Source: Eutreptiella sp. 'Long Island Sound 2002' | Taxonomy: Eukaryota; Euglenozoa; Euglenophyceae; Eutreptiales; Eutreptiaceae | Assembly (NCBI GenBank): GCA_964036045.1 | Contig: OZ038395.1 | Span: 6,215,753 to 6,279,752, forward strand | DNA: 64,000 bases | Direction of reading: 5' to 3' | In this document: piece by piece, positions 6,030-64,000 of the stretch | Layout of the letters: each line of letters begins with the position of its first letter | Numbering within the stretch: the stretch's first letter is position 1 | Notes under the pieces: generated by a model | Seen by the model: only the letters and a program-made list of their open reading frames with translations | What the model was told of the DNA's origin: nothing | Database searches by the model: none | Translations under genes and position numbers: made by a program

Positions 6030-6549
6030 ATGGATGTCGCGTCAAGCAGTGCTTTGTATTTGCTTCCACATCATGTCCTCGAACGTCAACATCCCATTGT
6101 CCACAAGTGGCGGACAGCTGTATGCTGCTTTGTAGCGATGGTGACTGCAGTAGTTGCACTGGGTGTGATCAGTGTTGCAAGTGCGGATCCACCCAGTGTT
6201 GTTACGTTAGCAAGGCCCACTCTACAGATGCAGCCAAGGGCAGATGCCATGGCTGCCGTTTCCGCACGATTGCACGCTGCAAGCTCATTGCTGGCACCAC
6301 CCCCGATGTACGCAGCAGCTAACCAGCCCAGTACACTTGCTGCTGAACAGTCTGCTCAACATGCTGCACAGCGCCCGGATATGGACCGGAAGCGGATCCC
6401 GATTTATGTAGGCGGCGTGGCTGGGATGATCCTCATCATTACTGCCCTGTTGGCCACATGCTTTCGAAGCAATACCGATTACCAGCCTTTGGAGAGTATA
6501 CTGTATGGTGAGGCCCAGATTAGTACCGTTACCATTGCAGCTGTCACTG
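6030..6549 (+). CDS. Gene A exon 1: two-membrane-segment N-terminus
   Basis: First exon of a modular membrane-anchored protein. ATG at 6030 is chosen because homology with copies B and C begins just before it. The exon encodes 173 residues plus one base (phase 1). A first hydrophobic segment (AVCCFVAMVTAVVALGVISV, about residues 36-55) is followed by a Pro/Ala/Gln-rich loop of about 85 residues. A second segment (YVGGVAGMILIITALLATCF) and a short acidic tail ending in AVTG close the exon. The GTATGC donor is at 6550. Topology and localisation are inferred from hydrophobicity only. The gene may no longer be expressed because its promoter appears displaced and its Tudor exon is broken. Confidence 0.65.
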
Positions 6550-6742
6550 GTATGCCAACCAGGACTGGGCTCAAGGGGGTTTGTTTACCTTCGTGGTCTT
6601 GTGGTAGTACGAAGTTATGATAAGGATATTGGACAGGGCCCCTGGTAAAGACCCCCAAGCTGTGCGGGTCTCACGGGGGTGGCATTGAGCCACGGTTGTG
6701 CATTATGGATTATAATACTTTGGTCTTTGACCCCATTCTTAG

Positions 6743-6835
6743 GAAGCAAGGCTTTCGTGGAAGTTAGCATTGTGGATGTGCTTGACCAGGCCGCATGGCA
6801 ACCCTGACCTGTTGGTAACGGTAACAGACATGACA
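6743..6835 (+). pseudogene. Broken Tudor-like cassette exon of gene A
   Basis: It follows an acceptor (TTCTTAG) in phase 1. The first about 18 codons (GSKAFVEVSIVDVLDQAAW) match the Tudor-like exons of C (63857) and E (28808). Similarity then stops and a TGA follows within three codons, so the rest of the barrel is gone. Skipping this exon would keep the frame into the BRCT exon, because both flanking joins are phase 1. Confidence 0.6.
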
Positions 6836-7048
6836 AAACACGGCCGGGTGATGCAGTTGTCTCTTTCTTTGCAACCGCCCTTCAATGTCTTTGGAAAGAA
6901 CCTGCATTGCCGTGTTGCAGCCTAAGGGATTTGAAACCCTGAGATGTGGTCAATGTGCCGGTGATCAGGTCCGTACAAACCCATGCTGCAGTGGCTCTTC
7001 TGGAAAGACTGTGCATACCAAGCGCACCCACCATCATTCTCTCTGTAG

Positions 7049-7348
7049 GTCATAGAGATCAGGGCTGCGGTCTGCCCCGGCCCATTTTCTGCATTGCTGG
7101 CCGATTTCGGGCTTACACGCACGCTCGCCTCAAAGCTCTTATTGAGGGGAAAGCTGGGGCCGTCTCTGATACAGTCAACTCCTCTGTGGACGCTTTGGTC
7201 TGTGGTGTGAGAGTAAAGGGTACGAAGAAGTATGAAAAGGCCAAAGACTTGCAGATTCCCACCATCAGCGTGGAGGAGATGTTCGAGAGCATTAGATTGG
7301 CAGACACAGAGAGTGGATCAAGCTTTGCCAACGACGATGTTCGCTCAG
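7049..7348 (+). CDS. Gene A BRCT cassette exon
   Basis: Begins after acceptor CTCTCTGTAG and ends at a GTAGCC donor. It is 300 bases with phase 1 on both sides, a symmetrical cassette. It encodes a BRCT domain of the RFC1/NAD-ligase style: FCIAGRF, then helix HARLKALIEGKAG, AVSDTVNSSVDALVCG, the KKYEKAKDL helix, IPTISVEEMF. Such domains bind phosphopeptides or DNA ends. The frame stays open past the donor for about 110 more codons, so intron retention or an alternative end is possible. Gene D has a homologous exon at 13903-14196. Confidence 0.75.
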
Positions 7349-8702
7349 GTAGCCCTCGCCCCTGGGCTCCGCTTGAGAGGGCAGAGGCTGAAGGGAGGCT
7401 TCAAGAGCGGTCGCAGCGCTTAGAAAAGCGGGCGGGCAGTTACAAAGCGGTTGGAGGACCATTTGGGGTTGGGGGCAGACGGAAGCGATCCGGGCCTTAC
7501 CTTCACCCCCGAAGGAGCGAGGCTGTCCTGCCACCCACGTTCATCCCTTCTTGTCGTTTGCAAGTGGAGATTGGGGAATCACACTTCATGCCATGCTCAC
7601 TGCTTGTGTCTCGCGGCGCGCGCAAACAACGCCCTTGTCAAAGCAACAGTAGGTGTTGTTTCCATCAAAGTTTGGAAGTTTAGTGTTGCTCTCGCAAGGG
7701 CGGGGGGGGGGGGTAGTACCGGTACTGGAGGCAGCATGTTTGCAGCGTGTGAATGATCGTTTGCAGAAAAGGGCAATGACGGCATCGTGTTGGGGAGTAA
7801 CAGGTCATGGGCCATGAGTGCCACTTGCAGGGGCATTCCGTGAGTTCTGGCACCTGCGGTTGGGTGGCGATGCCAAAAGCCTGACGGTCCGTCTGGGGTT
7901 TACGCTCAGGGCGTCGCATTCGGCGACCGCCTGTTGAGACCTGTGCCCTCTGTGTACCGGAGAAGGAGAGGACAGAATTCCTGCACAGGGTTGGGACTAA
8001 TGGCTGGACAGTGACCGCACCCCTGGGCACAGTGTAAACACCGGAGTTGAAGGTCTGTTACCGGAGTATAGGATGATTCTGCTGTGGCCATAGAGACGGT
8101 GTGCCCGAAATGGATGAGCTCTGTGCACACAGGGGTTCGAATAATACAGCAAAACATTGCAGTAGGCTACAGATTTTTTGGGCCAGGAGCGTGGCATCCA
8201 GTGCAGCAGCCCTTAGGGCAACAGTGACCTGTACATTTGGAGGCGCAGTCGTTATTGGAGTGGGCGTGAATACCCTCTTGATCCCGTTGGGTTTGGAGGA
8301 GATGTCTGATGTTGTGCCCGAGATCCCGAGGGTTTGGACCAAGACACAGGTCCGGAGGGGGTGGAGGGCGACAGGAAACTGTTTCGTAGTCTGACATTAC
8401 CAGTGGACCGCTTGGAGGAAGAGGGTTGGCCCTCCGGAGAAGGGATTGGGAAAACTTCAAATGTGAACTCGGGATACAGTGCAGATGAAGGCGGTGAGGA
8501 GGGTGGGAGGCGTAAGAAGATATGGAAAAACACTTGTGACATGCGGCTCAAGTACCTTTGTGGAGGTCAGTGCAGAGGAGATTGGCGGCTTCACACATTT
8601 TCACAGAGCCCCACTAGTGTGTTACTGTTTGGGCGCGTACTGCAAATGTTGGCAACTCTCAATGCAGTGGTCCTTGTTGTGTTGGTTTTGTGCATGTTGC
8701 AG
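7349..8702 (+). other. Gene A intron between BRCT and nuclease exons
   Basis: No cassette exon could be supported. In copy 2 the BRCT frame runs open to 54374, but copy 1 has indels near 7630-7720 that close it, and the remaining differences do not look coding-constrained. A polypyrimidine-rich stretch precedes the TGTTGCAG acceptor at 8702. Confidence 0.5.
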
Positions 8703-9454
8703 GTTTGGCAGAAGACCCATTCCCGAAGCTTGAGTTACACGAAAACCCTTCAAAACTGTCATCTGATTCGGAGGCAGAAAAAGCACACCTGAGACATTTC
8801 GAGCAGGTTGGCTTTGATTGGTTCTGCGAGAAGGTGGTTTCCATGTCTAATGACGATTTCATGCAGAAGTTGGGTGCAGAATACCCAAGCTGGGACCGGC
8901 AGGTCAAGGACTGCGTGAGAGAGTTAAGAAATTTAAACGATCAAGAACTCCAATGCGAGTTAGTGTACTCACGCCAAATTTCCTTGATCTTACAACATTT
9001 CTTTTTTCCTAATGGGGCTGGTGTACAGAATGCGGTCGCACATCAGTATGCAATACAAAAGGACCGCCGCACGTCGTGCAAGCCCGCAGTGGCCGATGGT
9101 GCCGTGCTCCTGAAGGGCCAGATTAGGGCAGTGATCGAAGTGAAACGGGAGCAGGCTGATCCAAGCAATCAAGCCGCAGCCTATGCCGTCGAGGTCAGTA
9201 GGTATGAGTATGAGCGCACGGAATACCCAAGGGTCATTTCGGTTGGTTTTAATTACAGAATCGTGTCCTTCGAAATCGTTATTCCAGCCCTTACCTCTTC
9301 GGGTGAGGCGGTTGTAGTGCGCATTAAGATTGCAAAGGCGAAGATCTCTTCGTTCAAAGTTGAGTTGCCATTGCTATTAATGAAGCTCAAATACGCTGTG
9401 CATAATCTTCCAGACCCCCTGCCGGCCCCTCTTCCTCTTAATGGCTCAGAATGA
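8703..9454 (+). CDS. Gene A terminal exon: PD-(D/E)XK nuclease module (CR-effector type)
   Basis: Enters in phase 1 and ends at TGA (9452). The nuclease core is visible: Asp in VADGAVLL (codon 9095), then Glu and Lys in AVIEVKRE (codons 9137 and 9143), then SNQAAAYAVEVSRY. This is the D...ExK and Q motif order of restriction-endonuclease-fold domains found in Crinkler/RHS-type eukaryotic effectors. The end matches the PLPAPL segment that links nuclease and kinase in genes D and E, so the protein stops exactly where the kinase would begin. Predicted protein with exons 6030-6549 and 7049-7348 is 523 residues. Predicted role: nucleic-acid cleavage. Confidence 0.75.
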
Positions 9455-11222
9455 TTCAAGTTCAACATTGAAAATTCACCCGTTTTGAGAGCCAGCCATG
9501 TTACAGGTGCTGCCATGGCACTGAAACCAGATGGGACTTCCATCAGCATATCCGCAGGCATTAGCTTCAAGCGATGCGCACGCCTTTTTTTTTTTTATGT
9601 GGTGTGCAGACCATCCCACTCATGCTTCGTTGAAATACGTTTCATTTGTGATTTGGAGATAATTAATCGTCAGTTTTTGTCCTGGCCTTTCGTTCAGAAA
9701 AGCTCCTGTGACGCCGTGTTTTTTTTTCTTGTCTATCTCACATTACTGTTGGTGATTTGCAACGTATTTATCGGAAACTGCATGGCCTAAATTGCCTCTG
9801 CCCAAAGGAATGCAGAGCACTTGCTGCACAGCCAAAGTGTATCAGGTGTTCGAGGCAATGCCTAAAACTGGGTTGTTTACGAGCAGACTCTGGAGATTGT
9901 TCTCGGACGTGTGCACATTGTGCCATAGAGCATCTCCGGTTGTGTTTCAAACGATATATATGATACCCTGTCTCTTGTGCCATCAGCTCCACGAGCTCCA
10001 CCCATGCCTCTGCTTGCGCACTGGTATGCCATGACCCCAGTTTATATCAGATTTACCACTCATCCCAGCGGCAGCACATGATTGCCCGTGATGACGTTGT
10101 TGAAAACGTTGTTTTCACCCCTTCCCATTGTGCCAGTCATCCTGCTGGGGTTGAAGTCAAGGTGCTGCCATGGGCTGTCCTGGTCACGACATACTGACCT
10201 GTTTCCTCGCTCTCGTTGGGAGATGGTACCAGGCTCCATTTCAGCAGCTTTACCTTTGTCCGTGCGTGGCCATCTCATTTCATTAGTACAAACTGTGCAA
10301 CCATGATGTCATCTTTGCTTCCGTCTTGTCTTTGTGCTGTTCCTCTTTGGAGGCTCCGTTGTGTCGTTCGTGCAAAGACATGTGCATACATCCGGCAGCA
10401 TATCAACTGGTGAATGGGCAGTTGTACAACACAAAGGAGAACAATTAGCAGGCCCAGATTCGGTGTTTGGGCGTGAAATTGAAGACCTTCAGTGCCGACT
10501 GGCTGATTTGCAGGGACCTCATGCCCCGTCCCGTTCGCTTGCTACCGTGCAGCAAACGATTGTGCGCCGATTGCCATTCCGGTGGCAACGTGATGTCATC
10601 GAAGCCCTCATTGATCTGATGAACATGACCGGCCGCTAGCGCTTGAGTGAGAATGTCTAGAAAAATCTCTAGCACACCTGCCAACCTTGCATTGAGCCCC
10701 ACTTTAGATGGAGGACCTAGTCGCACAAGTTGAATCACGCAATGACGCGCCCACAGCCCGTAAGGTCCGCATCCAAAGCACACACCCTTGTGGCCAAATC
10801 ACGGATCTTGTTCTTGTTTGGGTTGCCAGGCAGTTTGTGTGGCCCCCATGTACCAACAGGTGAGCAACCAACCCACCTATACACAAGTGGAGGATTCCCT
10901 CCTCAAAAGGCGGACAAGTACGTACACCTGGAAGTACCAAGTGGCATACTCTTTCAGCCTTGATGGCATGCCCCCCTCCTCCGGTTCGATGGGACAGTTC
11001 CTTTTGTGGACCTCAGCAGCAGCACAACACACAAGCGTGCAAACATACACCCACCCACACACCAAACATGTGCCAACCACCTACACAAAATTGTATATCC
11101 ACAAAGACTGCATATCCTTAAACAACTTTGGAAGAAACTGTGCAAGACTTGATTCATGGTTCCAATGCATCTGAATGCACCATGTGGGCGAATCAACATG
11201 CCTTTGTTGTTGCTTGTCCAAG
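9455..11222 (+). other. Duplicated 3' flank with Cys-rich ORF and broken coding-like fragments
   Basis: The gene A frame stays free of TAA, TAG and TGA for about 110 codons after its TGA. At 9757-9963 a 68-residue ORF rich in Cys (CLCPKEC ... CIRCSRQC ... CSRTCAHC) is present in both duplicates. About 10060-10200 and 10430-10639 give further plausible protein-like stretches, the last ending in RWQRDVIEALIDLM, but stops and frame changes interrupt them. I do not recognise a family. It is probably a decayed mobile element or gene. Confidence 0.35.
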
Positions 11223-11985: not shown

Positions 11986-13043
11986 GTCACGTGACAGTTG
12001 TTGGTGTGCTTGTTGCAGCGCATGTGGTTATTAGGGGGTCGCTTGCACCTTTAAAACCGTCTTTCCTGGAGAACTTGTAAAAAGCCTGCCCTCAGTGCAC
12101 GCATTGCAGCTCTGTCCTCTCTTGTACTCCCTGTGTTCAGTTGGTGTGCAGTCAGTAACCCCTGCCCCTCCATGTCCAAGCAACACTAGGCATTGGTTCT
12201 GTCTTTTTTTTGCACCGTGGATTTCGCTGCATTTTGTAATTGGCCCAACTGTGTGCCATATGTGCTGTGCAATATTTTGGTTTTCAGTGGCAGGATGTTC
12301 ATATTTTGTGTCAAGGAAGCTCAGTTGGCCAAGATGGCATTTGTATACTGTTTGGTTTTCAGGATAGTACACAATGTCTTGGATGAAGCCTGGTTGGCTG
12401 TTGTACTACCTAGCCTGTGGACCCATAGTGTCCATTGTTTTCCAACTGTATGTGCCAATTTCTGGGCCCCCAATTGTCACTGTTTATGAGTGTTTGTTCC
12501 ATCTTTCCACTCTTTGCTTGTGCACCACCGTCTCAACTTCCAACCCCCTCAGGATTTCACCCTCAAACCTCTTGAGGATTGTTTGCACTTGTACCATTCA
12601 CAGTGCGACGTATAAGCAACTTCCTTCTCTCAGCAACACCAGGCGTTGGTTCCGTCAATTTCTGGTCAAATATCGTTGCTTGGACAAGGGTTGGGGGTGG
12701 GAGCAGCTCCATTCCGTGTCGGACTGGTTCCTAGAGCGTCCTTAGAGCGTTCCTAGAGTGAAGATTGCCATTTTTATGAATTTCTGAAAACAAAATCATG
12801 TGCCATGACTCAGCTGGTCACAGACCGGAGGAGATAACAGAGTGACCATGAATGTAGCACTGCTAAGAAGACGAAGAGCCCGGCTACAGCTCTAGGAACC
12901 AGTACAGCCCTCAACAACTGTCAGCAGTTCTCTGTAATCCTCTGCAATTCAGGACAATCTCTCCCTGCACAGAGTATGCTATTTAGACTGTGTAAAAGAC
13001 AATTGTGCGGCAGCCCGTGCTCTCATTCGCTCTTGCACAGTGA
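11986..13043. other. Unassigned spacer upstream of gene D
   Basis: No supported gene. T-rich sequence with short open frames. A short CTAGAGCGT-type repeat lies near 12732-12755. No canonical TATA box was found close to the gene D start; TATTTAG lies about 60 bases upstream. Confidence 0.4.
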
Positions 13044-13566
13044 ATGGTTGCCGCCGACTTAACAATGCCCTTTCAGCCATTGTCGTCATCTGTGCACTAC
13101 ATTTCTGGGCCGCGTTGGCGGTACATGCCGGCGCAGTGCATGCGCGTGCCCATATACGCTGCTGTGAGCATCGCACTGGCTATGATGGTTGTCATATCCA
13201 ACAGTCTACATGCCCCTTTGCGATGGAGCACATTGTTTCCCATTTTGCGATCTTCAACGACTGTGCACCCTCAACATTTCGAATCAACACCCAATTTTCC
13301 TAAAGCTGAGTCCACAGAGCCCAGACCGCCAAGCACACCTTGGAGGAGTGCCATGCAGTACCAGTCCAAGCTCCAGCCTCATGCCACACAACATGTGCAG
13401 TGGCGTGAGCTTGAAGCTGCCAGCCTCTCCTCGCATGCATTCGTCCTCTCCGTGCTCCTGGCTATTGCTCTGTTGCTGACAGCTGCCTTTAAGCCCAGAC
13501 TGTGCCGTCCTTTCAGAAGCGTCGCCACGGACTGCTTACATGACATTGCCATGGTGCCAGCCACAG
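13044..13566 (+). CDS. Gene D exon 1: two-membrane-segment N-terminus
   Basis: 174 codons plus one base (phase 1), starting at ATG 13044. The first hydrophobic segment is YAAVSIALAMMVVIS and the second FVLSVLLAIALLLTAAF, separated by about 75 polar residues rich in Pro, Ser and Gln. A short tail ends in AMVPATG, like the AVTG/AATG ends of A, B, C and E. The GTATGC donor is at 13567. Sequence identity to A is very low, but the architecture, length and splice phase agree. Confidence 0.65.
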
Positions 13567-13902: not shown

Positions 13903-14196
13903 GTCATAGAGATGAAGCTTCCGCTCTGCCTGTTTTCTGCATTGCTGGCCGGTGTGGGGCTTACACCCACGCTCATCTCAAGGCGCTTATTATCGAGAAA
14001 GGTGGGGCTGTGTCAGATACGGTCAACTCCCGTGTGGACGCTTTGGTCTGTGGCGTTGGAGTAAAGGGCACTAAGAAGTATGAAAGGGCCCAAGACTTGC
14101 AGATCCCTACCATCAGTGTGGAGGAGCTTTTTCAAAGGATTGGATTGGGAGACATGGACAGTGCGTCACGTCTTGATAATGATGACGTTGGTTTAG
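13903..14196 (+). CDS. Gene D BRCT cassette exon
   Basis: Acceptor TTCTGTGTAG, donor GTCTCT at 14197; 294 bases, phase 1 on both sides. Strongly similar to the gene A BRCT exon: GHRD at the start, FCIAGR, GGAVSDTVNS, DALVCGV, KGTKKYERAQDLQIPTISVE. Here BRCT joins straight to exon 1 with no Tudor-like exon between. Predicted phosphopeptide- or DNA-binding module. Confidence 0.75.
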
Positions 14197-16762: not shown

Positions 16763-18060
16763 GTCGGACAAGAATCCCAGAGAAGCTTGCAGCTGACTTC
16801 AGTCCGGCTGAAATCGTGTCCTACCGGCAGGCTGCAGACAAAGGATTACTGCAGGACATTCAACCATGGATCCATCATTTTTGCATTGAATTGCAAGCCA
16901 AGACCGAGTTTAGTGACACACTCAGAGCACGTGCTATTGAATTTTCACGGTTCATTGCTGCCTGGCCTGATAATGATGTGCTTCATCTGGCCAAAGATGC
17001 ATATCGACGTAAGTCAGCCTTTTCTGCGATGGTTGCCAACCGACTAGACCGTTTCTTGTTTGAAAACGAATGGGATGGGATGCTGCTGCACCGCTCCACT
17101 ATGGTTCACACTGATGAGCCAGACTTCCTTGTACACTACTTTGGGCTCAGGAGTACAATGCGTCTTGTAGGGCAGGTGGAGGAGGCCATGGGTGGGGCTG
17201 CTGCCTACGCAGCCAGAGCAAACCAATCGGACATGTTTGAATGCACTGAACACCCCTTCATTGTCAGCTTTACTTGTGACCGCATTGATGCTAGTCTGGA
17301 CATTCTAATTTCAGGGCGGTACGAGAATGACCCAGCGCTTTGGACGTGTGGGATGGGACTTGCATCATGGCACTCAGAGCGCGAGATATCGCTGCTGCTG
17401 ATGAAGCTGTACCATGCAGTGCACAATTTACCTGAGCCGTTGCCCGCCCCTCTTTCCGCACCTGTTCCGTTTCCAAATTGGATTCCTGAGAAGGTGCGTT
17501 TATTGTCCCTCGTCTCCGGAGTTGAAGCACGCAGCACAGTGCAATATGGACAGTTCTGCTACAAGTTTCTGATCGGTTTTAGCGATGTCCAGGTCTATCG
17601 TGATGCCAAGGAAGCCGTTTCACAGCTGCATGTTATGTGCATTTTTCCTGTTCCACCATCTTCCCACATCTTCGCTGTAAGGCTGCCTTACATAAGGGAT
17701 GTTGGTAATATCTCAGCAGAGCCAACTCATTTTCTGGTTCTAATTGACCAGCTTCAGCAATTCCACCGCCACGGGATGGTACATGGCGATATTTGCCGGT
17801 CTAATCTGCTGTTAGCGTCGGATCCATCCAAGTCTCTGCTCATTGGGTTCGACTGCGCCTCGCCATGTGGCACACATTATAGTTCGAATTATACTTCTTC
17901 AATGCCGGAGAGACACCCTATTGCAAAGGCAGGTCAGGAAATGCGCCCGGAGCATGACATTCACAGCCTCCTCTATATCGTTTCTGGCATCCGTGAAGCC
18001 AAAAATGAGCTGACTGATGCCAAATGGGATGTTGTGGTGCAACAGCTGCAGCAGCATTAA
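16763..18060 (+). CDS. Gene D terminal exon: dead nuclease-like domain plus degenerate kinase
   Basis: Enters in phase 1; stop TAA at 18058. The N-terminal about 230 residues align with the nuclease of gene A around EPDFLVHYFG, GAAAYAARANQ and LLLMKLYHAVHNLPEPLPAPL, but the E-x-K pair is absent. The C-terminal part is a CR-effector-type protein kinase fold. It keeps HGDICRSN (Asp codon 17788, residue about 615), but the metal-binding DFD is GFD (Gly codon 17845, residue about 634). The PEHDIHSLLYI helix is kept. Predicted whole protein is 704 residues. Loss of the metal ligand argues for a pseudokinase or a decaying gene; the open frame over 1.3 kb argues against recent decay. Confidence 0.75.
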
Positions 18061-26940: not shown

Positions 26941-27430
26941 ATGTCTCTTCTACCATTGGTGCCTGTGCGCAGCAGTCCCAGGCTGGTGTGTGATTGGGCC
27001 ACCGTCAAGAGCCACGTCCCAACGTATTGTATTGCAGCCATTGGAACCACAACAGGCATTCTTACATTAGTCTTGGTCGGCACGCGCCCAGAATTATCTC
27101 TAGCATCGATTGCTCCTCTGCATTTGAGGCCAGCGCCTCATGTGGTCACCGCCGTTTCAATGAAGACCACATCGCCCATCTCAATATCAAATCCCAACAG
27201 CGATCAATCCATCGTGTCCCATCGTTCAAGTGAGACTCTCCATAGCCCCCGGGTGGATGCCCCCGTAACGACGCCATTTGGTACCGTATTCACGGTGCTG
27301 ATCAGTGGGACTTCGGCGTCTGCGGCTCTTGTATTTCTGTGCACTTTGCGGAACACCAGCAAGTCCCGCCTTTTGGAAGGTGTCGTGGTAGCCAGCAGTA
27401 ACAGTAACGTGGCCATGGCAGCTGCAAGTG
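26941..27430 (+). CDS. Gene E exon 1: two-membrane-segment N-terminus
   Basis: 163 codons plus one base, phase 1, from ATG 26941. The first hydrophobic segment is YCIAAIGTTTGILTLVLVG (residues about 29-47). The second is FGTVFTVLISGTSASAALVF (about 112-131), separated by a Ser/Thr/Pro-rich loop. The tail ends in NVAMAAASG before a GTATGT donor. It shares no clear sequence identity with exon 1 of A or D beyond the ending, but has the same plan. Confidence 0.65.
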
Positions 27431-28807: not shown

Positions 28808-28990
28808 GACGCAAGGATTTTACAGAAGGTGCGACGGTCTATTTGGATGAAGATGGTACATGGCTCCCGGGGGTTGTCATCAAGACGTGTCAAAATGGCT
28901 GGCGCACAATCAGAGTAGACGGTCGCGAGAAGCCCCTTCGTATTCGAGGCACGGAACAATTGCGACCCAAAAAGCCTACTTTCACCGATG
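28808..28990 (+). CDS. Gene E Tudor-like cassette exon
   Basis: Acceptor TGTGTAG, donor GTGTGC at 28991; 183 bases and phase 1 at both ends. It encodes a small beta-barrel: FTEGATVYLDEDGTWLPGVV, then NGWRTIRVDGREKPLRIRG, with alternating strands, a Trp at the start of strand 2 and a GW turn. It matches the gene C exon at 63857 and the broken exons of A and B. Tudor/agenet-type barrels bind methylated Lys or Arg on histones or other proteins. The fold call rests on pattern, without a profile search. Confidence 0.7.
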
Positions 28991-29210: not shown

Positions 29211-29336
29211 ATGGGACCGCGGGAGGCGACGATATGAATGAGATCAGAATCAAGTTGGTGGACACTTTGGCGGAGTTGGAGAATACCAAAAGAGAACTGA
29301 AGGAAGCCAAAGAGCAACTGAAAGAATCGATTGCAG
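29211..29336 (+). CDS. Gene E coiled-coil cassette exon
   Basis: 126 bases, phase 1 at both ends, between a CTTTCTGTGGAATCAG acceptor and a GTGAAT donor. It encodes 42 residues: an acidic start (GTAGGDDMNE) then a heptad-rich helix (LVDTLAELENTKRELKEAKE) suited to a short coiled coil or helical linker. Its symmetry and its position before the kinase exon make it a plausible cassette. It is small, and its acceptor is only moderate. Confidence 0.5.
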
Positions 29337-30341: not shown

Positions 30342-31663
30342 GTGCAGGCACAATCCCGGACAAGTTACCTGCTTTGTTCAGTGCCGCTGAAATTGTTTCA
30401 CATGAGCAAGCGGATGAACAGGGGTTGTGCAACGTCATCCCGCCGTGGATCCATCATTTCTGCATGGAATTGGAGGCCAAGACCGACTTTAGTGATGTGC
30501 TGAAGGCTCGGGCTCAGGAAACGCTTCGTTTCATTGCGGCGTGGCCTCATGAGACGGGGATGCTTCGTCTTGCGAAGGATGTGGAGCTACAACAGTCCTC
30601 ATTCTCTGCAATGGTAGCCAACCGACTGGATCGCTTTTTGTTCGAAAACGAATGGGATGGGATGCTGCTGCACCGCTCCACGATGGTTCACACTGATGAG
30701 CCAGACTTCCTTGTGCACTACTTTGGAGACAAGAGCACGCTGCGTCTCGTGGGGCTGGTGAGTGATGCGGATGCGGAAGATCCCGGAAGTCAGGCGGCTG
30801 CTTACGCCGCCAGAGCAAATCAGTCCGAAATGTTTGATTGCACCGAGCACCCGTTGATAATCAGTCTTGTTTGTACCCGAGACTCTTTTGACGTAGAAAT
30901 TGTGATTTCGGGTCGAAACAAGGACAAGCCAACGCTGTGGAGGTGCCCCATTGGGACGTCGTCATGGCACGATGACCATGCGATGCTGCTCATGAAACTG
31001 TACCACGCGGTGCACGATTTACCAGACCCATTGCCGGCGCCTCTTAGTGCACCATTGCCCTTTCCGCAGTGGAACCCGGATGATGCGCTTTTGTTGTCTC
31101 ACATTGGAGGGTCGCTCGCGCGCAGCGTCGTCAGGTATGGAGATCATTGTTACAAGTTTGTCACCAATGATTCGCTGGTTCAGGCACATCGAAATGCGAA
31201 GAAAGCAATTTCGCAGCTGCACGTTCTGCACATTGACCTCCTTCCACCCTCGTCATCAGTATTCGCCATACGACTACCTTACCTCAAAGACATTGGCAAT
31301 GAGGCAGCTGAACCCGCGCATTTCCTGGCTATAGCTGACCAGCTTCAGCAATTGCATCGCCATGGGCTGGTGCATGGGGATGTTCGTCGGTCCAATCTGC
31401 TTTTGGCATCCGATCCATCGCAGTCTTTGCTCATTGATTTTGATTTCGTTTCACCGCTTGGCTCGTATTACATTTCGACGTATAATCCGTCATTAGTAGA
31501 GAGACACCCTGATGCAAGGCCACGTGAGGAAATGCTCCCGGAGCATGACATTCACAGCCTGCTCTACATTGTACTTGCCATTTGTGGGATCAAAGAGGAG
31601 CGGTCTGACCCCAAATGGAATGTCGTCATACAGCAGTTGGTAGCCACCCATGCCGGCCCATGA
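30342..31663 (+). CDS. Gene E terminal exon: dead nuclease-like domain plus intact CR-type kinase
   Basis: Enters in phase 1 after TTCTGTTTTCAG and ends at TGA (31661). The N-terminal about 230 residues are homologous to gene D and, more distantly, to the gene A nuclease, but the E-x-K position reads GLV, so cleavage is unlikely. The kinase part keeps HGDVRRSN (catalytic Asp codon 31379, residue about 613), LIDFDF (metal Asp codon 31436, residue about 632), YNPSLVERHPDA and EHDIHSLLYI. These match the HGD/DFD kinases fused in Crinkler/RHS-type effectors. The predicted four-exon protein (26941-27430, 28808-28990, 29211-29336, this exon) is 706 residues. This is the only member in the window with a complete kinase signature. 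Confidence 0.8.
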
Positions 31664-35417: not shown

Positions 35418-36066
35418 ATGTGGTGTGCTGTTCTGTACCTCCCAACTGTGGAATTGGAGGACCTGAAGGCTTTGCAGCCAAAAGGCATATCTCGCTTCAG
35501 GTGGATGTTTCTGAGCATGGAATGGCTGCGGCATGTCATGTTAAGGCCATGTGCTGAGCCAGCGACGCTGTGCCATGTGCGCGCTCCGCACAGCCCTTGC
35601 GCAGTGCCGTGCTGGACCCTTCGCACAGCGGTGGTGATGCTTGTTCTGGTGTTGGCTCTCGTAACACGCAACGACGCTCCCGCGCCCTCGGTGCTCACGA
35701 TGGGCGTCAAGTCACTGCCGATCGCTGTGAATGCCGCGACACGACCGGCCGCAGGCGCACATCACAAATCGTTCAGTCCTCAAACACAAAGCCCCAGGGC
35801 CACGGCGGTGGTACCAGACCAGTCACTTGGCACTGGTCCTTCGGCCGTCAAAGCAACGGCCACGCGGTGTTGGGGGCCGTGGGGGATACCGTGCGCCGCT
35901 GCATGGCCCATGGAGCGGTGATTCGTGATGATGGGGCTGCTGTTCATATGGGCGTGCCAGCGTAGGCCTGGGCAGCGATGGAGGATGTTGAGGACCACGG
36001 GCACAGGGAAGGGGGACGAGTTGCAGGCCTTGGCAGCACAAGGCCCTGCATCACCGGACGCTTCAG
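35418..36066 (+). CDS. Exon F: two-membrane-segment N-terminus with one in-frame TGA
   Basis: From ATG 35418 the frame runs 216 codons plus one base to a GTGTGC donor at 36067. That is phase 1, as in the other family first exons. The first hydrophobic segment is VVMLVLVLALV, then a loop of about 85 residues rich in Pro, Ala and Thr, a second segment FVMMGLLFIWA and a tail ending SPDASG. A single TGA (35919-35921) lies just before the second segment. With only this interruption it could be a recent nonsense allele, a read-through codon or a sequence error. The downstream partner is unknown; the next phase-1 acceptor exon seen is the mTERF-type exon at 41123. Confidence 0.5.
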
Positions 36067-41122: not shown

Positions 41123-43806
41123 GTATGGGCATTGAGGAGGCCGTGGAGTACTATGTTGGTGCCAACCTTCAGGCCCTTATCGAGAAATATCCCTCAATGC
41201 AGGACTGCTCCGTGGAGAATGTGAAAGCGATTGCCGAGTACCTGCAAGAGCTTGGGGCTGATATGCGGGCCATCGTACAAATGTGTCCAGGCATATTGCA
41301 TTCTGACATCCATGAAATGCAAGCGGTTGTTGGATTCTTGCAGGAGTTGAGGGTTGACTTGTCAAAAGTAATAAATGCGGTGCCCTCCCTGTTGTGTTTG
41401 AGGTGAGAGCAGGTTAAGGATGATACGATTTATTTGCAAGAATTTGGTCTGGACATACGTGCAGTGGTAGATGAGCAGCCGCAGGTGGTTGGGGTTGGCA
41501 GGGAGCACATGCAGCGGTGCGTTGCATATCTTGATGAGCTGGGCGTGGATGTCCGCAAGGTAGTGAATTGCCATCCGGCGGTATTTTTGTATTCTGTAGA
41601 GACCCTGCAGTGGACGGTTGGGTATCTGCAGAACCTTGGTGTGGACACACAACAGGTTGTGCAACAGCAGCCACAAGTTCTTGGTTTGCAGAACCTGAAG
41701 GAAAAAGTGAGGTACCTGCAGGATTGGCGAGTGGATGTGGTTTCGGTGGTGAATCAGCACCCAGCAGTGCTGGGGTACAGTATGGAGAACGTGGAAGCTG
41801 TTGTTAGCCTTCTGAATAAGCCAGGTGTGGATATCGCAAGAGTAATAGGGCTTGATCCGGAGCTTTTGGGATGTGATGCCATGTCTCTGTTTGACAACAT
41901 CTTCTACGGTGTGTTATCTGAACTGCGCATAGACATGGGAACAGTGGTGAACTCTGTGCCGCAGGTACTCCGCATGGCGGCGGAGGACTCTTCCTCGGTC
42001 ATCACCCATTTGCGGGAGCTGTGTGTACAATGTCGCACCGTCGTGCAGAGGTATCCAGAAGTGCTGCTGCTTCCTGTGGAGGATATGAGCGCGACCGTTG
42101 CATATTTGCAGGGTTTGGGAGTTGATACCCGAAGAGTTGTGAACATGTTGCCAGAAGTGTTTGGTTTTAATATTTCACAATTGCAGAGCACAGAGGCATA
42201 TTTACGGGGGCTGGGTGTAGATGTGGCCATTGTGGTAACCGGACACCCGGCTGTGTTGTCGTGTGACAGAGAGAGCATGGACCGGACAATTGCATATCTG
42301 CAGTCCCTGGATCTGCAGGTGCCCGAAGTGGTGAACCGACATCCGGCCATGTTTTCGTATAGCGTGAAGACCATGAAGAGTACAGTCGTATATCTTGAGG
42401 AGCTGGGTGTGGATGTGGGCAAAGTAGTGAATCGGCATCCATCGGTGTTTGGGTATAGTATGGAGAACATGAAGGGGACGGTGGCATATCTTGAGGAGCT
42501 GGGTGTGGATGTGGGCAAAGCAGTGAATGGGCGCCCATCGGTGTTTGGGCTTCGTATGGAGAACATGAAGGGGACGGTGGCATATCTTGAGGAGCTGGGT
42601 GTGGATGTGGGCAAAGTAGTGAATCGGCTTCCATCGGTGTTTGGGCTTAGTATGGAGAACATGAAGGGGACGGTGGCATATCTTGAGGAGCTGGGTGTGG
42701 ATGTGGGCAAAGTAGTGAATCGGCTTCCATCGGTGTTTGGGTATAGTATGGAGAACATGAAGGGGACGGTGGCATATCTTGAGGAGCTGGGTGTGGATGT
42801 GGGCAAAGTAGTGAATCGCCATCAATCGGTGTTTGGGTATAGTATGGAGAACATGAAGGGGACGGTGGCATATCTTGAGGAGCTGGGTGTGGATGTGGGC
42901 AAAGTAGTGAATCGGCATCCATCGGTGTTTGGGTATAGTATGGAGCACATGAAGGGGACGGTGGCATATCTTGAGGAGCTGGGTGTGGATGTGGGTAAAG
43001 TAGTGAATCGGCTTCCATCGGTGTTTGGGCTTAGTATGGAGAACATGAAGGGGACGGTGGCATATCTTGAGGAGCTGGGTGTGGATGTGGGCAAAGTAGT
43101 GAATCGGCTTCCATCGGTGTTTGGGCTTCGTATGGAGAACATGAAGGGGACGGTGGCATATCTTGAGGAGCTGGGTGTGGATGTGGGCAAAGTAGTGAAT
43201 CGGCTTCTATCGGTGTTTGGGTATAGTATGGAGAACATGAAGGGGACGGTGGCATATCTTGAGGAGCTGGGTGTGGATGTGGGCAAAGTAGTGAATCGGC
43301 ATCCATCGGTGTTTGAGCTTCGTATGGAGAACATGAAGGGGACGGTGGCATATCTTGAGGAGCTTGGTGTGGATGTGGGCAAAGTAGTGAATCGGCATCC
43401 ATCGGTGTTTGGGCTTCGTATGGAGAACATGAAGGGGACGGTGGCATATCTTGAGGAGCTGAATGTGGATTTGGTTAAAGTAGTGAATCGGCTTCCATCG
43501 GTGTTTGGGTTGAGTATTGAAAACAATATTGCCCCAAAGGTGGAGTTTCTGACGCAGGGAATGGGGCGATCCGTCTCGGAGATTGATATTTCCCCGGCCT
43601 TCTTAAGCTACAGTTTAAATAAGCGCAGTAAGCCGCGATACATGTATCTACAACACCTGGGCCACAACACAGGCCGTAGTCTTGGCTATTTGATGACATC
43701 AGCGGATCACAATTTTGCCAGAGTTGTTGCAGGGACAAGCCTTGAGAAATATACAACTTGGTGCAAAGAGTATGGCATTCTTTCAGAGACAGATACGTCA
43801 GATTAA
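41123..43806 (+). CDS. mTERF-type helical repeat protein exon, about 26 motifs, one in-frame TGA
   Basis: Mitochondrial transcription termination factor (mTERF) repeat protein. Members bind nucleic acid in mitochondria or plastids and act in transcription, RNA processing or ribosome assembly. The exon enters in phase 1 after CAAACTGTAG (a start at ATG 41125 is also possible) and ends with TAA. About 26 consecutive 32-residue motifs can be read, each with a YL-x-ELGVDV helix and a VVN-x-xPxVF turn. The C-terminal SYSLNKRSKPRYMYLQHLG segment is the usual mTERF ending. Known mTERF proteins mostly have around ten motifs or fewer. A single TGA (41404-41406) falls at a variable first position of motif 4, where homology continues on both sides. 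No organelle-targeting peptide is visible in this exon; an upstream exon, possibly F, may supply the N-terminus. Confidence 0.8.
42373..43523 (+). repeat. 96-bp tandem array inside the mTERF exon
   Basis: Eleven nearly identical 96-bp units plus one variant at each edge. Most of each unit is invariant. Changes cluster at the codons for the HP/LP/RP turn (CAT or CTT) and the last two residues (YS, LR or LS). The earlier motifs of the protein are far more diverged, so this block has been homogenised by recent amplification or unequal exchange. Confidence 0.9.
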
Positions 43807-52486: not shown

Positions 52487-53006
52487 ATGGATGTTGCGTC
52501 AAGCAGTGCTTTGTATTTGCTTCCACACCATGTCCTCGAACGTCAACATCCCATTGTCCACAAGTGGCGGACAGCTGTATGCTGCTTTGTAGCGATGGTG
52601 ACGGCAGTAGCTGCACTGGGTGTGATCAGTGTTGCAAGTGCAGATCCACCCAGTGTTGTTACGTTAGCAAGGCCCACTCTACAGATGCAGCGAAGGGCAG
52701 ATGCCATGGCTGCCCTTTCAGCACGACGGCACGCTGTAAGCTCATTGCTGGCACCACCCCCGATGTACACAGCAGCTAACCAGCCCAGTACACTTGCTGC
52801 TGAACAGTCTGCTGAACATGCTGTACAGCGTCCAGATATGGACCGGAAGCGGATTCCGATTTATGTAGGCGGCGTGGCTTGGATGATCCTCATCATTAGT
52901 GCCCTGTTGGCCACATGCTTTCGAAGCAATACCGATTACCAACCTTTGGAGAGTATACTGTATGGTGAGGCCCAGATGAGTACCGTTACCATGGCAGCTG
53001 TCACTG
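52487..53006 (+). CDS. Gene B exon 1: two-membrane-segment N-terminus
   Basis: Duplicate of the gene A first exon, same length and phase, about 2-3% different, all without frameshift. The second membrane segment has a Trp where A has Gly (GGVAWMIL). Several differences match gene C and not A, giving a mosaic pattern among the three copies. Confidence 0.65.
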
Positions 53007-53199: not shown

Positions 53200-53292
53200 G
53201 AAGCAAGGCTTTCGTGGAAGTTAGCATTGTGGATGTGCTTGACCAGGCCACATGGCAACCCTGACCTGTTGGTAACGGCAACAGACATGACA
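53200..53292 (+). pseudogene. Broken Tudor-like cassette exon of gene B
   Basis: Same truncation as at 6743: the barrel stops matching after the AAW residues and a TGA follows. The lesion is therefore older than the duplication. Confidence 0.6.
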
Positions 53293-53490: not shown

Positions 53491-53790
53491 GTCATAGAGA
53501 TCAGGGCTGCGGTCTGCCCCGGCCCATTTTCTGCATTGCTGGCCGATTTCGGGCTTACACGCACGCTCGCCTCAAAGCTCTTATTGAGGGGAAAGCTGGG
53601 GCCGTCTCTGATACAGTCAACTCCTCTGTGGACGCTTTGGTCTGTGGTGTGAGAGTAAAGGGTACGAAGAAGTATGAAAAGGCCAAAGACTTGCAGATTC
53701 CCACCATCAGCGTGGAGGAGATGTTCGACAGCATTAGATTGGCAGACACAGAGAGTGGATCAAGCTTTGCCAACGACGATGTTCGCTCAG
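53491..53790 (+). CDS. Gene B BRCT cassette exon
   Basis: Nearly identical to the gene A BRCT exon; one visible residue change (ESIRL to DSIRL). Phase 1 at both ends. In this copy the frame past the donor stays open to 54374, giving an alternative 3' extension of about 194 codons if the intron is retained. Confidence 0.75.
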
Positions 53791-55134: not shown

Positions 55135-55886
55135 GTTTGGCAGAAGACCCATTCCCGAAGCTTGAGTTACACGAAAACCCTTCAAAACTGTCATCTAATT
55201 CGGAGGCAGAAAAAGCACACCTGAGACATTTCGAGCAGATTGGCTTTGATTGGTTCTGCGAGAAGGTGGTTTCCATGTCTAATGACGATTTCATGCAGAA
55301 GTTGGGTGCAGAATACCCAAGCTGGGACCGGCAGGTCAAGGACTGCGTGAGAGAGTTAAGAAATTTAAACGATCAAGAACTCCAATGCGAGTTAGTGTAC
55401 TCACGCCAAATTTCCTTGATCTTACAACATTTCTTTTTTCCTAATGGGGTTGGTGTACAGAATGCGGTCGCACATCAGTATGCAATACAAAAGGACCGCC
55501 GCACGTCGTGCAAGCCCGCAGTGGCCGATGGTGCCGTGCTCCTAAAGGGCCAGATTAGGGCAGTGATCGAAGTGAAACGGGAGCAGGCTGATCCAAGCAA
55601 TCAAGCCGCAGCCTATGCCGTCGAGGTCAGTAGGTATGAGTATGAGCGCACGGAATACCCAAGGGTCATTTCGGTTGGTTTTAATTACAGAATTGTGTCC
55701 TTCGAAATCGTTATACCAGCCCTTACCTCTTCGGGTGAGGCGGTTGTAGTGCGCATTAAGATTGCAGAGGCGAAGATCTCTTCGTTCAAAGTTGAGTTGC
55801 CATTGCTATTAATGAAGCTCAAATACGCTGTGCATAATCTTCCAGACCCCCTGCCGGCCCCCCTTCCTCTTAATGGCTCAGAGTGA
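55135..55886 (+). CDS. Gene B terminal exon: PD-(D/E)XK nuclease module
   Basis: Same length as the gene A nuclease exon and about 1.2% different, less than the flanking introns. The Asp of VADGAV and the Glu/Lys of IEVKR are kept, as is the terminal TGA despite a neighbouring synonymous change. Predicted protein with its exons is 523 residues. Lower divergence than the introns and preserved catalytic residues suggest this module may still be under selection. Confidence 0.75.
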
Positions 55887-57642
55887 CTCAAGGTCCATGT
55901 TGAAAATTCACCCGTTTTGAGCACCAGCCATGTTGCGGGTGCTGCCATGGCACTGAAACCAGATGGGATTTCCATCAGCATATCCGCAGGCATTAGCTTC
56001 AAGCGATGCGCACGCTTTTTTTTTGGTGTGGTGTGCAGACCATCGCACTCATGTTTCGTTGAATTACATTTCATTTGTGATTTGGAGATAATTAATCGTC
56101 AGTTTTTGTCCTGGCCTTTCGTTTGGAAGTGCTCCTGTAACGCCGTGTTTTTCTTCTTGTCTATCTCACAACACTGTTGGTGATTTGCAACCGTATGTAT
56201 CGGAAACCGCATGGCCTACATTGCCTCTGCCCAAAGGAATGCAGAGCACTTGCTGCACAGCCAAAGTGTATCAGGTGTCCGAGGCAATGCCTAATACTGG
56301 GTTGTTTACGAGCAGACTCTGGCGACTGTTCTCGGACGTGTGCACATTGTGCCATAGAGCATCTCCGCTTGTGTTTCAAACGATATATATGATACCCTGT
56401 CTCTTGTGCCATCAGCTCCACCCATGCCTCTGCTTGCGAACTGGTATGCCATGACCCCAGTTTATATCAGATTTACCACCCATCCCAGCGGCAGCACATG
56501 ATTGCCCGTGATGACGTTGTTGAAAACGTTGTTTTCACCCCTTCCCATTGTGCCAGTCATCCTGCTGGGGTTGAAGTCAAGGTGCTGCCATGGCCTGTCT
56601 TGGTCACGACATATTGACCTGTTTATCGCTCTCGTTGGAAGATGGTACCAGGCTCCATTTCAGCAGCTTTACCTTTGTCCGTGCGTGGCCATCTCATTTC
56701 CTGAGTACAAATTGTGCAACCATGATGTCATCTTTGCTTCCGTCTTGTCTTTGTGCTGTTCCTCTTTGGAGGCCCCATTGTGTCGTTCGTGCAAAGACAT
56801 GTGCATACATCCAGCAGCATATCAACTGGTGAATGGGCAGTTGTACAACACAAAGGAGAACAATTGGCAGGCCCAGATTCGGTGTTTGGGCGTAAAATTG
56901 AAGAGCTTCAGCGCCGATTGGCTGATTTGCAGGGACCTCATGCCCCGTCCCGTTCGCTTGCTACCGTGCAGCAAACGATTGTGCGCCGATTGCCATTCCG
57001 GTGGCAACGTGATGTCATCGAAGCCCTCATTGATCTGATGAACATGACCGGCCGCTAGCGCTTGAGTGAGAATGTCCAGAAAAATCTCTAGCACACCTGC
57101 CAACCTTGCATTGAGCCCCACTTTAGATGGAGGACCTAGTCGTACAAGTTGAATCACGCAATGACGCGCCCACAGCCCGTGAGCTCCGCATCCAAAGCAC
57201 ACACCCCGGTGGCCAAATCACGGATCTTGTTCTTGTCTGGGTTGCCAGGCAGTTTGTGTGGCCCCCATGTACCAACAGGTGGGCAACGAACCCACGTATC
57301 CACAAGTGGAGGATTCCCTCCTCAAAAGGCAAACACGTATGTTCACCCGGAAGCACCAAGTGGCATACTCTTTCAGCCTTTATGGCACGCCCCCCTCCCC
57401 TGGTTCGATGGGACACTTCCTTTTGTGGACCTCAACAGCAACACAGCACACGAGCGTGCAAACATACACCCACCCACACACCAAACATGTGCCAACCACC
57501 TACACAAAATTGTATATCCGCAAAGACTGCATCTCCTTAAACAACTTCGGAAGAAACTGTGCAAGACTTGATTCATGGTTCCAATGCATCTGAAGGCACC
57601 ATGTGGGCTAATCAACATGCCTTTGTTGTTGCTTGTCCAAGT
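55887..57642 (+). other. Duplicated 3' flank, copy 2
   Basis: Counterpart of 9455-11223. The Cys-rich ORF persists (56177-56392) with about six amino-acid changes. The later coding-like fragments also persist with different breaks from copy 1, consistent with independent decay. Confidence 0.35.
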
Positions 57643-60939: not shown

Positions 60940-61506
60940 CACACACACCCTTGTCCTTCCCCACCCCTTGACCTTCCCCGGGGGGAGGGGGGGGTTGGCA
61001 CAAGGCCTTGGTGGTTGGCTCTGTTAGCCTATGGCGGCGCCTATTGGCCTCTCGCCTTTGAACCTTCCGGGGGGCGGGGGGTGACCGTCACTTGGTCAAC
61101 CCAAAATTTTTCGTTGCGGCTCACTGTGTTGTTGTGCGGGTGACTGTGTTGTGGGGCACTGCCACATGTATCCCTTGTACTCATGGCAGGACATTTTGCT
61201 CACTTTCGCTGAAATGGAACTTGACAGCACAACCATGTTTCCCCCTGGGACAAATGTAATGTTCATCCGCTCCACGGGGGAACCTGTTTTGGCGCAGATC
61301 GTTGGACATTCGGAGCACGGTGATGCATATCGCCGCATTACTTATGAGCGCGATGGCAAGACCATCTTGCACGACATGCGTCTATTCGCGTACAGTGGTA
61401 GTGCGGTTCCCCAGGGGGGGATGGGGGACCGTCACTTGGCAACCGTTCCCCAGGGGGTGGTGGGGGGCCGTCTTCCCTGTGGTGGGGAAGGACAAGGGGG
61501 GGGGGG
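60940..61506 (+). mobile_element. 567-bp element with perfect 18-bp terminal inverted repeats
   Basis: CCCTTGTCCTTCCCCACC at 60948-60965 is the exact reverse complement of 61481-61498. Comparison with the uninterrupted left arm of the surrounding inverted repeat shows that only this segment is extra, which gives the boundaries. It is non-autonomous: no transposase, only the SH3-like ORF. A degenerate relative lies at 21830-22325. Confidence 0.65.
61214..61401 (+). CDS. Small SH3/Tudor-like barrel ORF within the TIR element
   Basis: Intact frame from ATG 61214. The core is FPPGTNVMFIRSTGEPVLAQ, then IVGHSEHGDAYRRITYERDG and KTILHDMRL, an alternating-strand pattern fitting a single SH3-like or Tudor-like barrel. 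The open frame continues to 61537 through G-rich low-complexity sequence. After AYSG a GTAGTG sequence in phase 1 could act as a donor. The same protein segment, frameshifted, is at about 21989-22150, so the ORF travels with the element. The fold is inferred from pattern only. Confidence 0.5.
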
Positions 61507-61814
61507 TAGGCGATTTCACGCTGGTTTGGCTGTTTAGTGGTTAGTTTCAAAAATCCACTTTTTATGAGGCCCTTCCGTTGACCCTGGGATGGGTTTGGGT
61601 GATTTGGTGATATTTGGTGACATTACGGGTATTGAGCACCCATGGGGACCCATGTAGTGGCCGCCAGGCCTATGTAGCCTGAGCCATGGGCCCCCCTGAA
61701 AGCCCCAAAATTGCTGTTTGTAGGTGGTTCAGTGGCATTTGGTGTGCGCACAAACTTCATGAGCAGTTTTCCACCCTCTACGGCTCAAAAAATGGAAAAT
61801 TTAAAAAAAACTTT

Positions 61815-62560: not shown

Positions 62561-62824
62561 TAAATTGTTACCCGGGTGCTCTGACTACGGTGCGACACAT
62601 GAAAGCATTGTCACACGCCGTCTGAGAAATGTAATATATCTGGCTCAGGGCCCGGATTTCGACCTGTGCACCACAATTGGTGGAACACCAGATGAGACAC
62701 GAACCGAGGAGACGGAAAATCGCATGCACTTGTCCAATCTCATTTCCTGAGTACCCCGAGTGAGTTGGGCATGTTACCATGACGCCACTTCTGCCCAGGA
62801 CAGGTGCCCATTACCACCCATCAT

Positions 62825-63024
62825 CGCCTCTCGTGCCATTGCATTGTACGGTCCAAGCACATGCCCCATTTGCGGCTTTTTTCTTGGTTGATTGCGGGTT
62901 GATTGCTAATCATACAGATGATGGAAGTCAAAAGGGGCATGCTCTCATGCACGCCACAAAATTGTATCATGACATCTCTAAAACAAACTTCACAAGTGTA
63001 TGCGCCATTGCCCAATTATAAATA
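62825..63024 (+). promoter_or_regulatory. TATA promoter module, copy 2 (gene C)
   Basis: Homologous to 32655-32845. TATAAATA at 63017-63024 lies 38 bases before the gene C ATG (63055), implying transcription starts a few bases before the start codon and a very short 5' UTR. Genes A and B lack this module. Confidence 0.65.
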
Positions 63025-63054
63025 GCAGTGCGCTGCCTTTTGCTGTTACAGGAC

Positions 63055-63574
63055 ATGGATGTTGCGTCAAGCAGTGCTTTGTATTTGCTTCCACACCATG
63101 TCCTCGAACGTCAACATCCCATTGTCCACAAGTGGCGGACAGCTGTATGCTGCTTTGTAGCGATGGTGACTGCAGTAGTTGCACTGGGTGTGATCAGTGT
63201 TGCAAGTGCGGATCCACCCAGTGTTGTTACGTTAGCAAGGCCCACTCTACAGATGCAGCGAAGGGCAGATGCCATGGCTGCCCTTTCCGCACGATGGCAC
63301 GCTGCAAGCTCATTGCTGGCACCACCCCCGATGTACACAGCAGCTAACCAGCCCAGTACACTTGCTGCTGAACAGTCTGCTGAACATGCTGCACAGCGCC
63401 CGGATATGGACCGGAAGCGGATTCCGAGTTATGTAGGCGGCGTGGCCTGGATGATCCTCATCATTAGTGCCCTGTTGGCCACATGCTTTCGAAGAAATAC
63501 CGATTACCAGCCTTTGGAGAGTATACTGTACGGTGAGGCCCAGATGAGTACCATTACCATGGCAGCTGCCACTG
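63055..63574 (+). CDS. Gene C exon 1: two-membrane-segment N-terminus
   Basis: Third copy of the A/B first exon: ATG directly after CTGTTACAGGAC, 520 bases, phase 1, GTATGC donor at 63575. Both hydrophobic segments are kept (VALGVISVAS and YVGGVAWMILIISALLATCF). It shares some variants with A and others with B. Unlike A and B it follows a TATA promoter and precedes an unbroken Tudor-like exon, so it looks like the functional parent or a better-preserved sister. Confidence 0.7.
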
Positions 63575-63856
63575 GTATGCCAGCCGAACTGGGCTCAAGG
63601 GGGCTTTTTCACCTTCGTGGTCTTGTGGTAGTACGAAGTTTTAATGAGGATACTGAACAGGCCCCGTTGTACTGGATGGACCCCAGTAGAACCCCAAGCT
63701 GCGGCATCGGTCTCACGGTATTGGCCCCAGTTGTTTGTCTTGTTTTGTGATTCCTTTCCGCTGGTATGGCTGCCCCTGCGCTCATTGAGCAACCGTTGTG
63801 TACTATGCAATGCTTCGGCGTGCACATGTGTTGACCTCATTTGACATCATTCTTAG

Positions 63857-64000
63857 GAACCAAAGGTTTTGTGGAAGGTGCCATTGTCGATGTGCTTGAA
63901 GAGGGCGCATGGCGGCGGGGAGTCATTGTCAAAAAGTTTAGAAATGGTTGGCGCAGAGTGCAAGTTGGCAATCGCGAGGAGCCCATGAAAGTTCGTGGAA
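63857..64000 (+). CDS. Gene C Tudor-like cassette exon, cut by the window edge
   Basis: After acceptor CATTCTTAG the phase-1 frame reads FVEGAIVDVLEEGAWRRGVI, then NGWRRVQVGNREEPMKVRG, to the end of the window without a stop. It is the intact version of the exons broken in A and B and parallels gene E 28808-28990. Confidence 0.7.

Follow-up and report, generated by a model that had tools for sequence, protein, structure and literature searches.

The question raised by this locus is what a tandem array of Crinkler/RHS-like genes does in the genome of an alga. We analyzed a 64,000-nucleotide stretch (hereafter, the window) of contig OZ038395.1 of Eutreptiella sp. 'Long Island Sound 2002' (C18:6215753-6279752), located within a 2.28-Gb genome, in which genes for predicted nucleases and nuclease-kinases begin with a separate header exon encoding two hydrophobic segments. 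The host is a euglenophyte alga: RbcS polyprotein genes are a euglenophyte trait, such polyproteins have been described for Euglena (PMC6242988), and the genome contains RbcS polyprotein reading frames of 1,693 and 1,642 amino acids. A dinoflagellate host had also been considered, given that presequences with two segments are found in that group too, but was dropped in view of the RbcS polyproteins; the rubisco of dinoflagellates is form II. The related genes form a tandem array that spans approximately 106 kb on C18 and, as became apparent once 80 kb of flanking sequence was added to the window, includes a 46-50-kb tandem duplication, in which blocks longer than 2 kb are mostly 94-98% identical, with shorter blocks down to 88%. 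On balance, and with considerable reservation, we favor the explanation that exons for a class I plastid presequence, reader-like cassettes, and a Crinkler/RHS-type payload are joined in this array at phase-1 introns, yielding proteins that act on plastid DNA.

Gene models and the predicted payload

The exons were rebuilt by hand and with a script, and the genes, all on the forward strand, were identified by their starts as G1 (6030), G2 (13044), G3 (26941), mTERF (35505), G5 (52487), and G6 (63055), which presumably correspond to genes A, D, E, F, B, and C, respectively, of the initial annotation. G1 consists of a header exon (6030..6549), a decayed Tudor-like exon with an in-frame stop (6743..6805; 19 residues, 58% identical to the G6 Tudor-like exon), a BRCT exon (7049..7348), and a nuclease exon (8703..9454). 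G5 is a near copy of G1, with a header (52487..53006), a decayed Tudor-like exon (53200..53262), a BRCT exon that differs from the one in G1 at 1 of 297 bases (53491..53790), and a nuclease exon (55135..55886). The header of G2 (13044..13566) is followed by a BRCT exon (13903..14190) and a nuclease-kinase exon (16763..18060), and that of G3 (26941..27430) by a Tudor-like exon (28808..28990), a coiled-coil-like exon (29211..29336; the coil was judged by eye, and no family scored above the cut-off), and a nuclease-kinase exon (30342..31663). G6 starts with a header (63055..63574) and a first Tudor-like exon (63857..64000 in the window, extending to 64039) and continues past the window edge.

The cassette content thus derived, namely, BRCT only in G2, Tudor-like and coil exons in G3, and a broken Tudor-like exon plus a BRCT exon in G1 and G5, agrees with the initial annotation. 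The same holds for the phase-1 ends of the first exons, the phase-1 starts of the nuclease, kinase, and mTERF exons, and the 1-1 symmetry of the Tudor-like (183 nt), coil (126 nt), and BRCT exons. Among the annotated BRCT exon lengths of 300, 294, and 300 nt, the two of 300 nt (G1 and G5) were recovered, but the G2 exon was rebuilt as 288 nt, reaching 294 nt if a donor 6 nt downstream, also in phase 1, is used. In seven models, five of them contained or starting in the window and two representing the flanking G2' and G3', all 18 introns are GT-AG and phase 1. These introns are not independent because G5, G2', and G3' copy G1, G2, and G3; 11 remain after removal of the copies, and two of the G6 introns (2 and 3) are themselves repeats. 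Uniform intron phase and symmetrical cassettes, as expected of a 1-1 exon-shuffled family, are found with or without the copies.

Splice sites in other phases (GT or AG) also occur within 60 nt of the chosen ones, so that the phase calls rest on comparative signs from the duplicated copies. Indeed, the duplication provides three gene pairs (G1/G5, G2/G2', and G3/G3') against which the models can be tested. Across the 10 exons of these pairs, 5,802 bases align without a single gap column, and all 10 retain the splice dinucleotides and are free of internal stops and frameshifts; in the introns, 6,861 aligned bases are accompanied by 2,816 gap columns. Divergence is 0.8-1.2% in the payload exons and 2.8-4.3% in the introns. 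These comparisons support the predicted gene models.

As initially proposed, the payload appears to be Crinkler/RHS-like, consisting of a predicted PD-(D/E)xK-fold nuclease, either alone or combined with a protein kinase. The catalytic D..E/DxK motif of the restriction endonuclease (REase)-fold nuclease is intact in G1 (D131..E145-x-K147), G5, and G6, with the nuclease exon of G6, located in the right flank, being 71% identical to that of G1. In G2 and G3, the nuclease is joined to the kinase, and the nuclease ExK motif is lost in both; the kinase motifs HGD..DFD are intact in G3, and DFD is changed to GFD in G2. A nuclease-kinase exon is present in G2 and G3 but not in G1 and G5, where the frame stops after the nuclease and there is no kinase part. 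Protein searches outside the contig of the window retrieved, among the matches listed, P0003, P0008, P0009 (E = 1e-26), and P0010 (E = 1e-12), with the best local alignments covering 79%, 19%, 21%, and 19% of G3, respectively; the query profile of one of these searches already included P0003. No relative was found in the viral contigs searched. The known header of Crinkler/RHS-type proteins is ubiquitin-like, with an LxLFLAK motif. Pfam scans of the header-exon frames of G1, G2, and G3 yielded no Crinkler family, and P0003 and P0008 yielded none either, so these scans had no positive control.

The lost nuclease motifs and altered kinase motif, along with stops in the mTERF copies and a broken nuclease piece upstream, are what would be expected of a decaying pseudogene array without present function. 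However, the 10 exons of the duplicated pairs are free of frameshifts and internal stops, and the pooled ratio of nonsynonymous to synonymous change (pN/pS) is 0.27 in the nuclease-kinase exons (Fisher p = 0.002) and 0.23 in the nuclease exons (p = 0.03), which makes such wholesale decay, in our estimate, very improbable. The ratio is 0.48 for the header (p = 0.02); among the six exon classes tested, it was not significant for BRCT (p = 0.67), Tudor-like (p = 0.33), or coil (p = 0.20) exons.

Genome-wide searches, in which only the best candidates were scored, returned to this array. All seven nuclease-kinase matches found lie between C18:6183542 and 6284882, with the broken nuclease piece slightly further left, and the array also contains all five Tudor-like exon matches, all three G1-header matches (the G2 and G3 headers were outside that search), and four of the five BRCT matches, the fifth being located on C21 and only 36% identical. 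Because the nuclease, Tudor-like, G1-header, and most BRCT matches co-locate, the array is a single local one, and the family is, as far as searched, confined to one locus. A dispersed family is therefore not supported, and the genome-wide check for the two-membrane first exon suggested in the initial annotation, run with the G1 header, led nowhere outside the array.

The header exon as a putative plastid presequence

Two N-terminal hydrophobic segments are encoded by all seven family headers and by the flanking mTERF header. In G1, G2, and G3, respectively, the N-flanks are 29, 31, and 29 residues long, the gaps between the segments 70, 69, and 69, and the tails 28, 25, and 29, although these three headers share only about 23% identity. 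Class I presequences consist of a signal peptide, a transit peptide, and a second membrane segment, with a spacing rule of 60 +/- 8 (PMC6242988). The spacing of 69-70 in the family (80 in the flanking mTERF header) can be compared with this rule and with the value of 67 obtained for the host RbcS by the same method. The stretch between the segments contains 13-29% S+T, 11-14% P, and 4-6 acidic residues in 69-70, with a net charge of 0 to +3; in the G1-type headers, it is low in S+T (13-14%) and rich in A (20-24%). By composition, this stretch would be described as hydrophilic and transit-peptide-like.

The headers end in TIAAVTG (G1), TMAAVTG (G5), TMAAATG (G6), AMVPATG (G2), and AMAAASG (G3), all in phase 1, the final G corresponding in each case to the codon split by the intron. 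The host RbcS presequence on C11 (N-flank 25, gap 67) ends similarly, in VSMAAATG-EKD, shortly before mature RbcS. A list of RbcS linker or presequence ends, with 15 partly overlapping rows, shows AMAGTTG in 9, all from C14. Counting the headers themselves, there are 25 instances of the motif [MI][AV]xx[TS]G among the 103,119 open reading frame (ORF) positions of the region. PsbO shows a gap of approximately 67 and a phase-1 intron, given one of 12 possible joins that was picked by splice signals; the presequence exons presumably belong to the PsbO domain. In a scan of 144 kb for the header geometry, 12 of 226 ORF starts qualified, at eight loci, namely, every one of the seven family headers plus that of the flanking mTERF copy, compared with 0 of 427 in ten shuffles. 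A homology-free scan for two segments recovered the five family headers in the window. Four other ORFs that it also picked up were set aside: the one at 56511 (+) does not have the header spacing, and three (-) lie in a repeated retroelement-like stretch.

The spacing and the RbcS-like end motif of the header indicate that the proteins are probably imported into the plastid rather than anchored in a membrane as effectors. Two caveats apply to this assignment: the C14 RbcS presequence end SMVSIAG does not fit the header motif, and both the geometry limits and the end motif were defined after the headers had been seen. No clear presequence was seen at four other RbcS places (C1, C5, C4, and C17), in a search that scored the best 150 of 330 candidates and in which part of the 156 matches was examined. 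A plastid presequence is nevertheless the best reading of the header, short of proof.

The initial annotation had instead considered the products to be membrane-anchored effectors. Under this explanation, the two hydrophobic segments would be transmembrane helices in the endoplasmic reticulum or surface membrane, or the proteins would be secreted, and the payload, which is of the Crinkler/RHS type, would hit other organisms. Angomonas, like the host, is a euglenozoan. For one Crinkler/RHS-type (CR) protein, from Angomonas, a hydrophobic header has been reported (PMC5289972), in line with this possibility. Nevertheless, the header geometry and end motif resemble the host RbcS presequence, the family occupies a single locus as far as searched, and the array also includes an mTERF-repeat gene with this type of header, making an effector role the weaker reading and, in our view, an unlikely one.

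The latter gene consists of a header exon (35505..36066), which contains an in-frame TGA at codon 139 and ends with ASG in phase 1, and an mTERF repeat exon with a phase-1 start (41123..43806; Pfam mTERF E = 1.7e-120), which contains an in-frame TGA at 41404. The mTERF proteins are organellar, and the presence of the same header type on such a protein fits the plastid reading of the header. The flanking copy, unlike the one in the window, has no stop at header codon 139; the in-frame TGA of the body is common to both, and these copies may be decaying. A 96-bp tandem repeat (12.1 units; 42368-43525) lies within the mTERF exon, with apparently more units in the flanking copy.

Pyrimidine-AG acceptor-like sites are present upstream of the header ATGs (5958-6030, 12990-13044, and 26900-26941), as might be expected with leader trans-splicing or an intron in the 5' untranslated region. 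On a small contig, C1884, PsbO is split differently and the leader looks different; on impression only, this contig was set aside as perhaps a contaminant.

Reader-like cassettes between loss and exchange

Chromatin-reader cassettes had been annotated between header and payload. The BRCT assignment is secure (Pfam E = 1e-9 to 3e-10, including 9e-10 for G1 and 3e-10 for G2), but the Tudor/Agenet identity of the 183-nt exon is only a lead: the G6 exon matches Agenet at E = 0.057, below the cut-off of that family, and the G3 exon has no Pfam match. A BRCT domain combined with a Tudor/Agenet-like lead, together with the even number of hydrophobic segments, could point to nuclear-envelope hairpins, with both segments remaining in the membrane and the payload in the nucleoplasm, where the BRCT and Tudor-like domains would tether or cut chromatin. 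Yet the only solved chain that matches the G1 BRCT domain at E = 0.01 or better is that of a DNA ligase BRCT (1l7b; E = 7e-4), and the headers of G1, G2, and G3 have diverged while keeping their spacing and end motif, as targeting peptides do, so that we regard a nuclear-envelope location as distinctly unlikely.

The cassettes follow a constant order in all genes, and their presence or absence alone could reflect differential loss. Accordingly, a scenario without shuffling has to be taken seriously, in which an ancestor with header, Tudor, BRCT, nuclease, and kinase was tandemly duplicated and the copies lost different exons; the decayed Tudor exons of G1 and G5, the decayed BRCT of G6, and the growth of the array through the 46-50-kb duplication are all compatible with it. 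What simple descent does not predict is the discordant synonymous divergence between exons of the same genes. Of the synonymous sites compared between G1 and G2, 28 of 66 have changed in BRCT, as opposed to 116 of 150 in the nuclease exon (Fisher p = 1.6e-6); for G6 and G3, the Tudor-like exon has 20 of 43 changed and the nuclease exon 124 of 148 (p = 3e-6). The sites were counted by a simple NG86-like method, and the nuclease values are saturated. Moreover, when the introns were searched by tblastn at E = 1, those of G2 yielded no Tudor remnant and those of G3 no BRCT remnant. Descent with loss alone is thus a possibility of some substance, but one that we rather doubt. The divergence of the BRCT and Tudor-like exons is more recent than that of the adjoining nucleases, from which it follows that cassettes probably moved inside the array; judging from the synonymous sites, transfer of reader cassettes or a payload swap within the array probably explains the discordance better than simple descent.

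Multiplication of a cassette is apparent in the right flank of G6, which contains two more Tudor-like exons, a pair of decayed BRCT pieces, and the nuclease exon. Here, the Tudor-like exon is part of a 1.8-kb unit repeated threefold, so that three near-identical exons, each 1-1, occupy C18:6279609-6283420 (from 63857 in the window). The initial notion of an actively recombining family is indirectly supported by this repeat and by the discordant divergence, but the presence and absence of cassettes could be produced by losses alone, and loss plus occasional exchange is the fair reading of the pattern.

Several features of the surrounding sequence were also recorded. A 5.7-kb retroelement-like stretch, with a weak RNase H match (1843-2424) and a Prok-JAB match just below the cut-off (3422-3844), precedes both G1 (276-6030) and G5 (46741-52487). 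Its two copies differ at 20 of 5,744 bases, compared with about 3% divergence in the gene introns, which suggests recent conversion or homogenization. Downstream of G1 and G5, there is a reading frame with no Pfam match (10307-10636 and 56726-57055), and the bin 10500-10749 contains 2 differences per 250 bases, with 11 and 21 in the neighboring bins. The frames 61085-61534, which has no Pfam match, and 22109-22414 share an RRIxYERxGKT-type peptide, which we take to resemble a retroelement integrase tail. Rfam (at gathering thresholds) and tRNA scans of the window found nothing.

Proposed action and comparison with known systems

Taking the header to be a plastid presequence, we infer plastid import, DNA as the substrate, and regulation by paralogues. 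The precursor would enter the endomembrane system via the first hydrophobic segment and be held by the second for delivery to the plastid, where a cut near the MAxxTG-like site would free a soluble stromal protein. Guided by the BRCT and Tudor-like domains, the nuclease of G1, G5, or G6 would reach plastid DNA and cleave it, and G2 and G3, the kinase paralogues with a dead nuclease, would regulate the active one. Judging from domains and motifs, plastid DNA cleavage is the likely function. A bolder extension, which we put forward tentatively and hold to be doubtful, is that the euglenophyte nucleus captured a Crinkler-type conflict nuclease, that a presequence exon provided it with a plastid address, and that it was redirected against the plastid DNA of the cell itself. 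Together, the active nuclease arm (G1, G5, and G6) and the nuclease-dead kinase arms (G2 and G3) might then act as a switch controlling the turnover or loss of this DNA. Permanent bleaching of Euglena cells through loss of the plastid is known, which would make this reading testable.

Crinkler/RHS-type nuclease-kinases are mainly discussed as effectors against other cells. If our interpretation is correct, the combination of a payload under selection with a plastid-like address and DNA-reader cassettes preceding it, in an alga with plastid genes, would represent a toxin tamed for organelle use. In either case, the array illustrates, within approximately 106 kb, duplication, decay, and probable exchange of phase-1 exons, as well as a presequence-like module encoded as a stand-alone exon. 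A literature search pairing Euglena with Crinkler found no paper among the 5.39 million covered. Within this one euglenophyte array, Crinkler/RHS-type nuclease-kinases are predicted to be combined with reader cassettes and an exon resembling a plastid presequence.

With CR proteins, in which REase plus kinase pairs account for about one sixth of the C-termini (PMC5289972), the family shares the REase-like nuclease, the kinase proposed to regulate it, and the modular N- and C-terminal parts. It differs in the plastid-presequence-like double hydrophobic header, in the BRCT and Tudor-like cassettes placed between header and payload, in the predicted partial split of nuclease and kinase activities between paralogues, and in its confinement, as far as searched, to one locus. 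With the class I presequences of euglenophytes (RbcS and PsbO), the header shares two hydrophobic segments separated by a hydrophilic stretch, and with RbcS in particular, a similar spacing (67 versus 69-70) and the MAxxTG-like end; however, the RbcS frame on C11 runs on into the mature protein, whereas here, a separate exon ends at the motif, in phase 1. As in the DNA ligase (1l7b), there is a single BRCT domain, but that of the array precedes a nuclease and is not part of a ligase. Finally, all-phase-1 introns, symmetrical exons, and the tandem multiplication of one exon (in G6) are shared with 1-1 exon-shuffled families, from which this family differs in that the probable exchange is confined to a single tandem array.

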